Shown here: positions 27,367 to 32,104 of the stretch, piece by piece
Numbering within the stretch: position 1 is the first letter of the stretch
Layout: every line of letters starts with the position of its first letter
NCBI GenBank assembly: GCA_016786765.1
Contig: JAEUUZ010000046.1
Span: 62,001-126,000 of the forward strand
Source: Chitinophagales bacterium
GTDB taxonomy: Bacteria > Bacteroidota > Bacteroidia > Chitinophagales > LD1
Direction of reading: 5' to 3'
DNA length: 64,000 nucleotides
Made by a program: the position numbers and the translations under genes
Notes under the pieces: generated by a model
Told to the model about the DNA's origin: nothing
The model's input: the letters and a program-made list of their open reading frames with translations, nothing else
Databases searched by the model: none

Positions 27367-29196
27367 CTATTCTACTGCAAATCGTTTAGTGATACTGTTT
27401 TCGCCATTCTTAATATGGAGTACATACATTCCGCTGCTAAGTTCGTTTAATCCTAAATGGAATTGCTGCTCACCTACATTTCCTTTTAAGTATATTGCTT
27501 TTACTACTTTACCTTGCACATCCATTATGGTACACTCCAACTTATCGTTATTGTCGCTATTCACTGAAAAGCTAAGTTGATGTTCGGCAATGGGATTTGG
27601 AAATACATTCACTGAAAAGTTGAAATCCTCAACATTTTGTACAGCATTATACACCAAGTCAAATTCTCTCCAACAGCCTCGACTATCGGTAACACGAACC
27701 GAATAAAATTGCCCAATCACTAAGGGTGAATAATAGTTGGCCGTTCCTCCATTGGCCCAATCATAAGTATATGGCGGAAAACCTCCGGTAATATTCGCAA
27801 TCAAACGATTGCCCGATTTCGAAAAATTGTTGTTAATGGGATCATAATTATTTACTGTAAACTGAGAAATAACTTCTTGTCCGCTGCTATCGTTTACCGT
27901 TACATTATAGGAGCCGGCAGTCAATCCGGTTATACTTTTTGTACTATCGCCTGTTGACCATTTATATCGATATGGCGCGGTTCCCGATACCGGGTTCAAT
28001 ACAATACTGCCATCATCGGGCAAACCGCAATAGATATCTTTAACTGCTGCGTTTAGGCGAATAGGAGACGTTTTAAAAGTAGTGGGGCTGTTGAATCGAT
28101 TGCAGTTGTTGTTGTATGCAACAGGCATTATTCGATATCTATAGGTTTTATTCACTGCTAAATTTCGAACGGCTACAAAAGTGTCGCTAACGGCAATATC
28201 CACCAAGGGTTGAATGCTGATTCCGGGAATTTCTATAATATAGAATTGCGCACCGTCTACTTTATGCCATTTGAAAAAGGCATAATCTGCAGCTATATTC
28301 GAATCATTAGCCGTTGGTGCAATAACTTTTACCGTATCTAAAGGCACAAAACCGGTAAACGAATTATTGACCAAATTTGCACGTTGCGATTGAATGGTTC
28401 CGTACATGTATCCCCCTTGATCGGGACTGAACTTTTTGTGACAGCCATCGTTCGCATACGACATGTAAAACGCTCCGTCTAATACAGTTCGATATAAATC
28501 ACCATTAGGGTCGGTTTGATTGCCGTTGTATGGGCATGTCCATCGATAATCCAAAAAATCGGCAGGGGTATCGCAGAAATAATCTCCGGCATTCGCGCAG
28601 TTTGTTCCATTCACAAATTCTACACCACCCCAACTATCAAACGTGTGCGGAAGTCCGCAGTAGTGGCCCATTTCGTGGGTTAGGGTTGTTGTGCCTGTTC
28701 CGTAACAATTTTCGTTGATGAAAATACCTCCGCCATTGGGTCCCGAATTCGGGAAATAGGCGTAACCGCACACCCCGGCCGGATTTTTATTTACGTAAAT
28801 ATTGCATACATCATCCACATTAAAGGAGTTCATAATATCATCTCCGGTCGAAAAATCAGTGAATTGATAGTAGTCATCATTAAAGAATGAATCTATGCCC
28901 ACAATATAAAACTGGATTTTGGAGGGAAGGAAATTTTGATTCAGTTCGCAATGGGATGCCAATACCTCGCTTAATCGTTTGACACCACTTTTATCGGATT
29001 TTCCAATTATGTGATAGAACACCGGAATGTATAATGTATTTACCCTAGCGGAAGGCGACTGTTTTCGAGCTTCTGCAATTAGGGCAGGATATTTTGATAA
29101 ATATGCCGGGTCGCTTAATGTACCGCAAAAATTAATTTGTCCTTGTACTAGCCAATGAATTCCTAAAACAAATAATAGCGTTAGTGTCTTCCTCAT
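27367..29196 (-). CDS. Secreted M43 (cytophagalysin/pappalysin-like) metalloprotease with T9SS domain
   Basis: A 609-residue secreted zinc metalloprotease. A signal peptide (residues 1-20, ending VQGQ) precedes the M43 domain. The zinc site is HEMGHYCGLPH (residues 174-184), the HExxHxxGxxH metzincin motif. The later CHKKFSPDQ region with its YMSYANDGC Met-turn completes the catalytic fold. A fibronectin-like part follows, and two SprB-like repeats (VSGTAPYRYKWSTGDST; ITGGFPPYTYDWANGG). The last ~75 residues are a type-A T9SS domain (FSVNVFPNPIAE to ITKRFAVE). It should degrade extracellular protein. It is divergent from the ABC unit at 29345. Confidence 0.93.
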   Translation of the reverse strand: MRKTLTLLFVLGIHWLVQGQINFCGTLSDPAYLSKYPALIAEARKQSPSARVNTLYIPVFYHIIGKSDKSGVKRLSEVLASHCELNQNFLPSKIQFYIVGIDSFFNDDYYQFTDFSTGDDIMNSFNVDDVCNIYVNKNPAGVCGYAYFPNSGPNGGGIFINENCYGTGTTTLTHEMGHYCGLPHTFDSWGGVEFVNGTNCANAGDYFCDTPADFLDYRWTCPYNGNQTDPNGDLYRTVLDGAFYMSYANDGCHKKFSPDQGGYMYGTIQSQRANLVNNSFTGFVPLDTVKVIAPTANDSNIAADYAFFKWHKVDGAQFYIIEIPGISIQPLVDIAVSDTFVAVRNLAVNKTYRYRIMPVAYNNNCNRFNSPTTFKTSPIRLNAAVKDIYCGLPDDGSIVLNPVSGTAPYRYKWSTGDSTKSITGLTAGSYNVTVNDSSGQEVISQFTVNNYDPINNNFSKSGNRLIANITGGFPPYTYDWANGGTANYYSPLVIGQFYSVRVTDSRGCWREFDLVYNAVQNVEDFNFSVNVFPNPIAEHQLSFSVNSDNNDKLECTIMDVQGKVVKAIYLKGNVGEQQFHLGLNELSSGMYVLHIKNGENSITKRFAVE

Positions 29197-29344: not shown

Positions 29345-30478
29345 ATGCAGGAAATATTAAGCGAGTTGAAGGCTTATGTTCAGCACAAAGACTACCAACT
29401 CTACAGACGGAGATTATTGGATGCCGCTTACGAAACTCAAAATGATACCCTAATCGATGAAGCCATTGGCTGGAGTTTACAAACCCCTAAAGAAGAGGGC
29501 GACAATACTTTGGCTTGGTTGAATTCCGGAGCTCGTTTACTGCAAAAAGTAGCGGAAAAAATACAACATGCCGGTCCGGCAAAACGTGTGCAATTAGTGA
29601 AAGCCGATAATTTGACGAAGCAATATGCCAAGAGCGTTTTTAGTTTAAAACCTTTTCATGTTGAAATTTACTCCGGTGACATTATCGGTATTGTTGGTGA
29701 GAACGGTAATGGGAAAACAACATTGTTGCGGTGTTTGGCCGGGCAATTACAAAAAAGTACAGGCGACATCAGCTATTTCGGCATTGAATCATCAGATGAT
29801 TTTTACAGTATTAAGCATAAAGTAGCTTTTATTCCTCAGCGTATTCCACGTTGGTTTGGCCTGTTAAAAGATAACCTGCATTTCAGTGCAGCCATCAGTG
29901 GTATTCATGGCAAAGAAAACGATCGAATGGTGCATTTTATGTTAGAGCGATTGAATCTTACAAAATTCGCCAATCTTACTTGGGATAAAATTAGTAGTGG
30001 TTATCGAACCCGTTTCGAAATTGCCCGTATTTTGTTGCAAAAACCCAATCTCCTTATCTTAGACGAACCACTGGCAAACTTGGATATTCATGCGCAACAA
30101 ACGTTACTCAGCGACTTGCAATTTTTAGTAAAATCGCCAACCTTGAACTTAGGTGTAATTTTGAGTTCGCAGCAATTGCATGAGGTAGAAAAGGTGGCCG
30201 ACAAAGTGTTGCTTATTAAAGACGGGAATTGTTTCTGGAATAATGATTTGATGACAGAATCGGATATCGGGGAATTGGTTGTTGAGCTGGAAACAACAAC
30301 CGATAGAACCCATTTAGCGGCAATTCTACCTTCATCTATTGCTATAGCTTTTAATGGTAATTTTTATACCCTTTCCGGTCATTTCACAGCCAAAGAATTG
30401 CTGGCTACCCTTTCCGAAAAGAATGTTGATGTGCACTATTTCCGCAATATTACCCATTCTACAAAACGTTTTTTTTAG
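29345..30478 (+). CDS. ABC transporter ATP-binding protein with N-terminal helical extension
   Basis: A 377-residue ATPase. Residues 1-80 are a helical extension (LSELKAYVQHKDYQLYRRRL) that lies before the NBD. The NBD has Walker A GENGNGKTT (about residues 118-126), Q-loop FIPQRIPRW, signature SSGYRTRFEIARILL (a variant of LSGGQ), Walker B LLILDEPLANLD, and the switch residue region LSSQQLHEVEK, in which the usual His appears as Q. The C-terminal 70 residues (VVELETTTDRTHLAAIL...) form a regulatory tail. ABC-2 exporter ATPases have this general layout. The partner is almost certainly the membrane protein 21 bases downstream. Confidence 0.88.
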   Translation: MQEILSELKAYVQHKDYQLYRRRLLDAAYETQNDTLIDEAIGWSLQTPKEEGDNTLAWLNSGARLLQKVAEKIQHAGPAKRVQLVKADNLTKQYAKSVFSLKPFHVEIYSGDIIGIVGENGNGKTTLLRCLAGQLQKSTGDISYFGIESSDDFYSIKHKVAFIPQRIPRWFGLLKDNLHFSAAISGIHGKENDRMVHFMLERLNLTKFANLTWDKISSGYRTRFEIARILLQKPNLLILDEPLANLDIHAQQTLLSDLQFLVKSPTLNLGVILSSQQLHEVEKVADKVLLIKDGNCFWNNDLMTESDIGELVVELETTTDRTHLAAILPSSIAIAFNGNFYTLSGHFTAKELLATLSEKNVDVHYFRNITHSTKRFF

Positions 30479-30499
30479 TCCCTACTTTTAATTTTGTTT

Positions 30500-32104
30500 A
30501 TGAATAGCAATAAATTTATTCCGTCATTCTTGCACCGCATCGACAACTATTTGTTGAAAAATAAACCGGCTGTATGGAGTACACGCATTCATTTTGTAGC
30601 CTTCTTTACAGCAGTTGTTACCGGTGTTTTATTGGCCTTACTGTTGTTTGTCAATAAAGATCCAAGGGAATCCTCTGATGAACTCACATGGGTGTTATTA
30701 ATATCTATTTTGGTGATACTTTCTGTTGTGATTTATCTTATGTATCTGCTCCGATTTAATGTGTTCAAACGTTTTGGCGAGTGGGATACGAAGGATAGCT
30801 TATTCAGCTTTTTGTTTTTTATGCTCACCTTTGCCGGTATTTATTTTTGGGGGGCTATTCCTTCGATTACAGAGTATGTTATAGCCAATAAAAAATACAG
30901 TTATGAGGAGCTGATTAACGATCAAAATCGCTACAATACTTCTATTGCAGTTGTTGAAAAAGATTCTTTGAAGTTTTATGTTGCGGTTGACGATACGGTT
31001 GTACTTGATACAACAGCGAATGTTTACGATAGAAATGTGGATTACAGCGATGAAACAACTACTTATGTAGAGGCTACTGCTTCACCAGCAGTAAAGGTTT
31101 CCAACAATGCTGAACGTGAGAATTTAACCGCCACTCCTCCCCGAAAAACAACCATTTACCGCGACTCAGCGCAGTATTATAATATGTTGCAACAAAGCGA
31201 TAGTGTTCGTGTTTTAAGCGATACTTCATTTGTTGAATATATTATTCCGGATTTTCGTTTTTGCGGACAGCAAAGTTACAGTTCGAGGTATAATCGTGGG
31301 TCAGACGAACCCGATTCAATAGAATGGTCTAATCTTCGATTGTTTTATGAAGTGTTAGATGCCGTGAAGACACAGCAAAAAGATACCTGTAATGCCATTA
31401 TCGCTCGCATTCAGAATAAATACCTTATTCATGAGGATCGCGAAGATTCTTCAGTTCGTTCTTTCGATCTCTACACATTGAAATATAAAAAAGAGTACAA
31501 CAAGCCTTCTTATAGCGAGTATATCAACTATAAACATTATACCCCTGGAATCGAAAACAGAATCGATCATATTCGCGATAGAAAACGACAGTGGAACAGT
31601 ACCCATACTAATCAAAAACTGCATTTGTTGTTTTATCTTTCTATGCTTTCTGCCTTGTTCCTGTGGATGTTCCGCCACAATCATAAAAAGCCTTTCTTTC
31701 TTAGTTTTCTAGTGGGCGGACTGTTATTTTTATTTTCATCTATATTCATGATTCTCACGAATTCCCATACGGATGGCTTTTTCTTCCTAGCCGCTTTCTA
31801 TTACCTCTTGTTTACGGTTATAGCGTTGTTTATTTTAAGGCTTAAAACACAAAAGAATTTGCCGCTCATTTCACTTAATTTTATTGTGCTGACAACCTTT
31901 TTTATTCCCATGTTTTGTGTATCTGTTTGGTATCGAAACCAAGAGCGCTATAACCTTACAGAAGATGCTAGAAACATATTGGAGTTTAAATTCCAACACT
32001 ATATGGCTTTATCCGAATATATTGGGTTTGCATTATTAATACTGGGTATTTATTTTGTGTTTAGCCGACTCTATAAGAAATGGATTGCACTACCCGAGGA
32101 ATAA
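30500..32104 (+). CDS. Polytopic membrane protein, probable partner of the preceding ABC ATPase
   Basis: A 534-residue inner membrane protein with three N-terminal helices (about residues 30-50, 62-84, 100-120), a large hydrophilic segment (about 125-370) and five C-terminal helices (about 377-392, 400-422, 428-450, 457-480, 505-525). The soluble part is Tyr/Asp/Ser rich and matches no domain I know. The topology (helices split by a large external domain) resembles ABC-2 type permeases. The start is the ATG at 30500, 21 bases after the ATPase; a TTG two codons earlier is less likely. It is probably the transport channel of a two-gene exporter. Confidence 0.72.
   Translation: MNSNKFIPSFLHRIDNYLLKNKPAVWSTRIHFVAFFTAVVTGVLLALLLFVNKDPRESSDELTWVLLISILVILSVVIYLMYLLRFNVFKRFGEWDTKDSLFSFLFFMLTFAGIYFWGAIPSITEYVIANKKYSYEELINDQNRYNTSIAVVEKDSLKFYVAVDDTVVLDTTANVYDRNVDYSDETTTYVEATASPAVKVSNNAERENLTATPPRKTTIYRDSAQYYNMLQQSDSVRVLSDTSFVEYIIPDFRFCGQQSYSSRYNRGSDEPDSIEWSNLRLFYEVLDAVKTQQKDTCNAIIARIQNKYLIHEDREDSSVRSFDLYTLKYKKEYNKPSYSEYINYKHYTPGIENRIDHIRDRKRQWNSTHTNQKLHLLFYLSMLSALFLWMFRHNHKKPFFLSFLVGGLLFLFSSIFMILTNSHTDGFFFLAAFYYLLFTVIALFILRLKTQKNLPLISLNFIVLTTFFIPMFCVSVWYRNQERYNLTEDARNILEFKFQHYMALSEYIGFALLILGIYFVFSRLYKKWIALPEE

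Follow-up and report, generated by a model that had tools for sequence, protein, structure and literature searches.

Mechanotransmission by an ATP-binding cassette (ABC) machine has been proposed for NosDFY, in which NosY is a six-helix ABC-2 protein and NosF has histidine at the switch position and no EAD11-like N-terminal domain. The ABCA exporters are single-chain full transporters with another membrane domain, the GldA-type ATPases of Bacteroidota carry histidine at the switch position, and the membrane proteins of MacB, FtsX and LolCE have four helices. Here we describe a two-gene ABC unit in a 64,000-nt stretch of a Chitinophagales bacterium (contig JAEUUZ010000046.1, positions 62,001 to 126,000; below, the window), encoding an ATPase with glutamine at the switch-histidine place and an eight-helix membrane partner. 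The pair represents an ABC family that is conserved but has no entry in Pfam or NCBIfam. It is undescribed in the libraries searched, and the link of its ATPases to the helical adaptor EAD11 (Pfam PF19964, cut-off 26 bits) did not turn up in our literature searches. We tentatively read the unit as a switch or sensor that acts by mechanotransmission and has a docking domain in the cytoplasm.

The window ATPase matches the ABC_tran profile and has both Walker motifs, with the catalytic glutamate. The generic ABC_tran is the only Pfam family above its cut-off (25 bits), and the NCBIfam matches shown are all far below theirs; the best, a GldA-type family, reaches 105.9 bits with a cut-off of 402.6. 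The switch histidine of the H-loop is absent, and membership of the superfamily does not depend on this one residue. An earlier note, made from the sequence alone, had described a helical N-terminal extension, a signature other than LSGGQ, and glutamine in place of the switch histidine, and all three are borne out. In the model (45 aligned sequences, mean pLDDT 91.5) residues 2–73 form four predicted helices, followed by the ABC domain and a C-terminal beta-alpha-beta-beta-alpha-beta domain; SSGYRTR stands at the LSGGQ place (residues 217–223), with the degenerate family form S[STG]G[YF][RK]xR, which we count as a signature; and in the sequence alignment Gln276 falls in the column of the ABCA4 switch histidine.

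Structural matches of the whole ATPase model run over residues ~81–377, with the N-terminal domain outside them. ABCA4 aligns at residues 80–377 (Z 23.3, root mean square deviation (rmsd) 3.6, 292 residues aligned) and NosF, with a similar C-terminal domain, at residues 83–377 (Z 22.5, rmsd 3.8, 283 aligned); TM_1403 also matches the nucleotide-binding domain (NBD) together with the C-terminal domain. The predicted fold is thus that of an ABCA/Nos-type ATPase with a C-terminal domain. By sequence, the best matches of the NBD among solved chains are the ABCA exporters (ABCA4, ABCA1, ABCA3), which differ from the window ATPase in having the switch histidine, while NosF and NosY differ in that the window partner has eight helices and its ATPase an N-terminal domain and glutamine.

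Searched with the membrane protein, 60 genomes yielded, besides the window genome, a single relative, whose matching 40 residues lie in a frame of 529 codons immediately downstream of an ABC gene; a search with the ATPase extension gave one further pair. At E 0.001 a three-sequence profile had matches in 21 of the 396 genomes of the order, of which L051 proved to be an unrelated transporter. With a 23-member profile the family was found in 21/396 genomes of the order, 8/395 of the phylum, and 33/295 of a class sample centred on G448. These counts leave out 14 of the 35 genomes passing E 0.001 in the order scan (E 4.4e-5 or weaker; two, L100 and L101, were inspected), 3 of 11 in the phylum scan, dropped unseen, and 5 of 38 in the class scan (one, L152, inspected). 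Scanning genomes with only the membrane protein brought no match, probably because this protein diverges fast. A 44-residue segment with the ATPase signature, compared with a collection of 84,980 species, gave 62 loci. Judged by title, they are from Bacteroidota, except one "bacterium" and one metagenome-assembled genome labelled Williamsia, an actinobacterial genus. The latter (L172) holds a typical pair, 73% identical to the window in the segment used for the search, and its label is probably wrong.

Among the 61 loci found mostly through the membrane protein (counting the window, and with two from some genomes), an ATPase lies upstream on the same strand in 58. In 55 of these the gap is between –100 and 150 bases; in L148 it is exactly –100, in L150 the ATPase is followed by seven genes, two of them passing the profile and all with Pro-x-x-Trp near the N-terminus, and in L146 the ATPase had first been hidden by the open reading frame (ORF) filter. 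Of the three unpaired loci, L120 lies at the end of its contig, and L043 and L135 hold lone membrane genes. In the set found through the ATPase, 59/62 loci have the membrane gene just downstream, and the three exceptions are cut off by the end of the contig; many contigs occur in both sets. The recurrence of the pair in dozens of loci is far beyond chance, and the gene-pair conservation in Bacteroidota, which the earlier note had wanted checked, is such that the two genes nearly always co-occur.

Glutamine at the switch place is a family-wide trait, present in every readable member. In the first set (58 proteins, window included) a script read it in 54/54; it was also read in L134, L144 and L147, and L093, the first half of a split gene, ends before the switch place. 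In the second set (62 proteins) it is present in 61/61, the remaining protein being cut. The host genome has 38 ABC matches: the window ATPase with glutamine, 23 matches with histidine at or beside the aligned column, one misaligned and 13 that stop short of the column. Loss of the switch histidine slows hydrolysis in other ABC proteins, and a literature search gave nothing on natural glutamine at this place; the natural glutamine series may serve as a test of what the switch residue is for. The family is a defined and testable one, an ABC ATPase with a fixed change of the switch residue and a membrane partner outside Pfam and NCBIfam. The split ATPase gene of L093 lies over two frames (L093:4427-5569), and its genome has the same family code as the Tenacibaculum genomes.

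The 3+5 arrangement of helices that the earlier note had given to the membrane protein is seen both in the model (53 sequences, mean pLDDT 84.9, pTM 0.81) and in hydropathy. The predicted order is elbow helices (residues 9–28), helices 1–3, the external part, and helices 4–8, helix 7 being broken. The external part, about 245 residues between helices 3 and 4, as noted earlier, is rich in Asp and Tyr (9.5% and 9.0% over residues 153–363), and its residues 179–214 are poorly predicted. The putative side faced by each loop was assigned from helix order and charge. Mean conservation is highest, among the regions compared, in the loop at residues 85–96 (2.82 bits), followed by the elbow (2.49 bits), and falls to its lowest values (1.01 and 1.25 bits) in the external domain; the loop RFNVFKR is a likely ATPase contact. 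The largest gap between helices comes after helix 3 in 66 of 71 rows, where it spans 100 to 451 residues; the other five include L101, an unrelated transporter caught by the profile, and a 250-codon paralogue in L046 with eight helices and no external domain.

Several loci hold more than one membrane unit. In L045 (L045:4692-8165) two units, each with its own elbow motif, are fused in a 1158-residue chain behind an EAD11-bearing ATPase, which fits a dimer. A separate EAD11 gene and an ATPase are followed by three membrane genes in a row in L046 (L046:2382-7581) and by four in L049 (L049:3541-9955). In L150 (L150:1474-9688) one ATPase precedes seven consecutive membrane genes with the family elbow motif, six of them of 273–301 codons and therefore with little or no external domain. 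The fused chain and the arrays point to membrane units that form pairs and are exchangeable.

The window membrane protein has no Pfam or NCBIfam family at its cut-off, in line with its earlier description as a protein of no known family. Among family models at E 0.1, none matches more than 3/53 or 2/23 members in Pfam, or more than 1/53 in NCBIfam (the 53- and 23-member sets overlap). Comparison of its model with solved structures gave matches at E 6 or worse, and a second comparison at most Z 4.3, rmsd 6.1 over 81 residues; such weak matches are compatible with a new fold as well as with an ABC-2 core. The membrane profile has three matches among the sequences of solved structures, the best at E 0.048.

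A competing explanation is that the unit exports a lipid, peptide or glycan as an ABC-2-like exporter to which two N-terminal helices and a large external domain have been added, and in which glutamine only tunes the cycle. We regard it as a serious contender, given the NBD likeness to ABCA exporters, the match of the NBD with the C-terminal domain to TM_1403, NosF and ABCA4, and the succession of elbow helix, helix 2, coupling-like loop and helix 3, which resembles the layout generally ascribed to ABC-2 proteins. Still, no ABC-2 model is found among the Pfam matches at E 0.1 of the 53 and 23 members, each scanned singly, the helices are eight and not six, and the 25 commonest clusters of neighbouring genes include no recurrent gene for biosynthesis or for a substrate.

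EAD11 exceeds the Pfam cut-off in two family ATPases (L045, 53.7 bits; L050, 47 bits) and falls below it in the extensions of three more (L044, 24.0; L037, 20.7; L048, 19.6 bits). In two further loci it occupies separate small genes, of 113 and 121 codons: that of L049 (33.2 bits) runs up to the ATPase start, and that of L046 (34.8 bits) precedes the ATPase by ~500 bases. In both loci the ATPase's own extension has no EAD11 match. Altogether, 11 of 49 scanned extensions and small genes match EAD11 at E 1. L037 (E 4e-4) and L034 (E 0.05), Chitinophagaceae-type relatives of the window clade, match it in the same register, and L037 is the row nearest to the window by path in the tree. A profile of the window clade aligned with that of EAD11-bearing family members over 76 columns (score 31.1, E 9e-5, probability 59), with 200 column shuffles reaching at most 19.1, and we count this as a profile relation. 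The window clade also matches ten intermediate members (E 5e-14), and these, in turn, score 23.8 against ten canonical EAD11 sequences (shuffles at most 14.7). On these profile comparisons we take the N-terminal domain of the window ATPase to be a diverged, EAD11-derived copy.

In EAD systems effectors are recruited homotypically (Kaur et al.; PMC7159879, PMC8195603). The main text of PMC7159879 contains neither "ABC ATPase" nor "ABC transporter", that of PMC8195603 has no "ABC", and "EAD11" occurs in neither of these texts; a literature search turned up no ABC ATPase bearing EAD11. Apart from relatives of the window ATPase, the domain is found on TIR, CHAT, SIR2-like and STAND proteins. Eleven of 18 family-holding genomes tested have 3 to 44 EAD11 copies each; in the seven without EAD11 the ATPase signature is of the form SSGY[RK]. 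Four of the EAD11-bearing genomes supplied ten EAD11 proteins for scanning: two also carry TIR, two NB-ARC, and one each CHAT, a SIR2-like domain and iSTAND, the remaining three having nothing else over a cut-off. If true, the EAD11 link would be the first sign known to us of EAD adaptors reaching a membrane ABC machine, and how EAD networks see the envelope would become addressable by pull-down.

We also considered whether an EAD11-bearing ATPase goes with an EAD11-rich genome, and set this idea aside. At E 1e-3 the ATPase itself matches EAD11 in 4 of the 11 EAD11-bearing genomes and in 1 of the 7 without EAD11 elsewhere (G159, with L037), a comparison that is no valid test because the two groups are also separate clades; in a fifth EAD11-bearing genome, G357, EAD11 is in a separate gene upstream of the ATPase.

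Two explanations give EAD11 the leading part. According to one, the pair serves a conflict system, of immunity or cell death, as its membrane component, and EAD11 contacts on the ATPase would trigger a membrane response. The presence of EAD11 on ATPases or in adjoining genes, its copy numbers in 11/18 genomes and the effector or STAND domains of 7/10 scanned EAD11 proteins speak for it, as does the pair of G030, which lies close to a TIR ORF with an EAD11 part in another frame (L006:7073-7811; the gene looks broken). Set against this, most extensions scanned, that of the window included, lack an EAD11 match, as do 7/18 genomes, and many Chitinophagaceae pairs have their chromosomal surroundings in common, with neighbours that look, by eye, like housekeeping genes (for example a glutamyl-tRNA synthetase). 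Moreover, in PADLOC, a library that gives no cut-off, the membrane protein matches no model, and the ATPase matches mad3 best (67.7 bits, residues 211–293 only) and other NTPase models too; we take these as generic ATPase matches, other mads genes not having been looked for. We hold the conflict system to be quite improbable. A bolder variant, unlikely in our view though less so, is an ABC-powered membrane arm of an EAD network, in which the eight-helix protein, with its fast-diverging outer domain, would sense or execute at the envelope and a slow ATP-clamp ATPase would relay its state via the N-terminal EAD11 to TIR, SIR2-like, caspase-like and STAND proteins, a membrane immunity receptor on an ABC engine.

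For the mechanotransmission switch or sensor we start from what is observed, that is, the family, the gene pairing, the invariant glutamine, and EAD11 in relatives together with its kinship to the domain of the window clade, and propose the following as to stoichiometry, cycle, direction of action and partners. The complex would most likely comprise two ATPases and two membrane proteins, and ATP binding would close the ATPase dimer. With glutamine in place of the switch histidine, ATP is probably hydrolysed slowly, so that the closed, ATP-bound state would last long. Closure would pass via conserved elements expected on the cytoplasmic side, namely the elbow Pro-Trp, the loop RFNVFKR and the C-terminal tail, to the eight helices, which may move the variable periplasmic domain, as in a switch or sensor rather than a high-flux pump; the idea of ATP-driven movement of a periplasmic domain is the one known from MacB, FtsX and LolCE, whose four-helix membrane proteins differ from the eight-helix one here. 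The N-terminal four-helix domain may dock a cytoplasmic partner or a second copy of the ATPase. Where relatives are rich in EAD11, it would link the complex with death- or immunity-type proteins that share EAD11 and carry TIR, SIR2-like, CHAT or NB-ARC domains; in the window lineage the domain has diverged. The conserved parts should face the ATPase and the variable part outward, as expected of a fixed engine with a changing outer target. This pattern, together with the reading of glutamine as a clamp, is why we slightly favour mechanotransmission or sensing as most likely, with export nearly as likely. The two options of the earlier note, an atypical exporter or a mechanotransmission complex, were thus the right ones, but that reading was incomplete as to the EAD11-derived extension, the family-wide glutamine and the C-terminal domain shared in the NosF and ABCA4 alignments.

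Several observations weigh against the proposed switch or sensor with its docking domain. The NBDs closest by sequence are those of exporters, and the 25 commonest neighbour clusters hold no recurrent third gene that would point to what is moved or sensed. The window extension has no match to Pfam EAD11 at E 1, and the direct comparison of the window clade with the ten canonical EAD11 sequences, though in the right register, is not significant (15.1; 200 shuffles with mean 10.0 and maximum 17.4), so the EAD11 origin of the window extension rests on its relatives. The window's genome has no EAD11 match at E 0.001, and hence no cognate EAD11 effector is seen in it. In L144, L147 and L149 the ATPase ORF lacks the extension and opens with the ABC domain, so the family can do without it.

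A quick tree that included four outgroup ABC ATPases places all 55 family members in one clade (SH-aLRT 98; this is the only support measure used, and two of the outgroups are on very long branches). The window ATPase is placed near sequences of other families (nearest f20), separated by a branch of 96 from the two other members of its own family, f1. This placement speaks against simple descent of the window gene with its family; judging by the tree, transfer or an old duplication is possible.

Neighbours were surveyed as ORFs of at least 100 codons in two annotated locus sets. The recurrent ones reflect lineage-wide synteny, and the six commonest clusters are all on the other strand. This survey also bears on self-protection or removal of antimicrobial peptides in the manner of BceAB or LanFEG, for which two-gene ABC units with a large external domain are known to be used. 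Such a role seems to us highly improbable: no bacteriocin gene was evident by eye among the 25 commonest clusters, a single response-regulator-like cluster occurs in five loci and in varying places, and the eight helices differ from the ten of BceB, with the external domain placed elsewhere.

Features of the pair are collected in Table 1. The membrane-protein gene starts at ATG 30500, an alternative TTG at 30494 adding 2 residues, and the spacer between the two genes is 21 bases.

Table 1. Features of the ABC gene pair (window positions; residues are those of the respective protein)
Feature	Coordinates	Strand	Evidence
ABC ATPase, 377 aa	29345..30478	+	ORF; Pfam ABC_tran 93.5 bits; model pLDDT 91.5
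N-terminal four-helix domain, residues 1-73, taken as EAD11-derived	29345..29563	+	Model helices 2-13, 17-30, 34-45, 53-73; profile comparisons with shuffled controls; L037 match
Walker A GENGNGKT, residues 118-125	29696..29719	+	Translation; invariant in 45 aligned sequences except E119
Signature SSGYRTR, residues 217-223	29993..30013	+	Translation; S[STG]G form in relatives
Walker B LILDEP, residues 237-242, catalytic Glu (E241) kept	30053..30070	+	Translation; D240, E241, P242 invariant 45/45
Gln276 at switch-histidine place	30170..30172	+	Alignment to ABCA4; invariant 45/45
Predicted C-terminal beta-alpha-beta-beta-alpha-beta domain, residues 311-377	30275..30475	+	Model; structural matches ~81-377 to TM_1403, ABCA4, NosF
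Eight-helix membrane protein, 534 aa, no named family	30500..32104	+	ORF; no family matched; model pLDDT 84.9
Predicted N-terminal elbow helices, residues 9-28, conserved Pro23 and Trp26	30524..30583	+	Model; P and W in 51/53
Loop RFNVFKR between helices 2 and 3, residues 85-91, putative cytoplasmic	30752..30772	+	N87 and K90 in 53/53
Variable external domain, residues 153-363	30956..31588	+	Between helix 3 and helix 4 in model; least conserved region
Predicted membrane helices 4-8, residues 367-530	31598..32089	+	Model

Two observations concern the surroundings of the pairs. In two Tenacibaculum contigs (L202, L203) a same-strand gene begins ~25 bases after the membrane gene, its cluster holding these contigs only. 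In the window, upstream of the pair and on the other strand, positions 27367–29196 encode an M43-type metallopeptidase with SprB repeats and a secretion tail.

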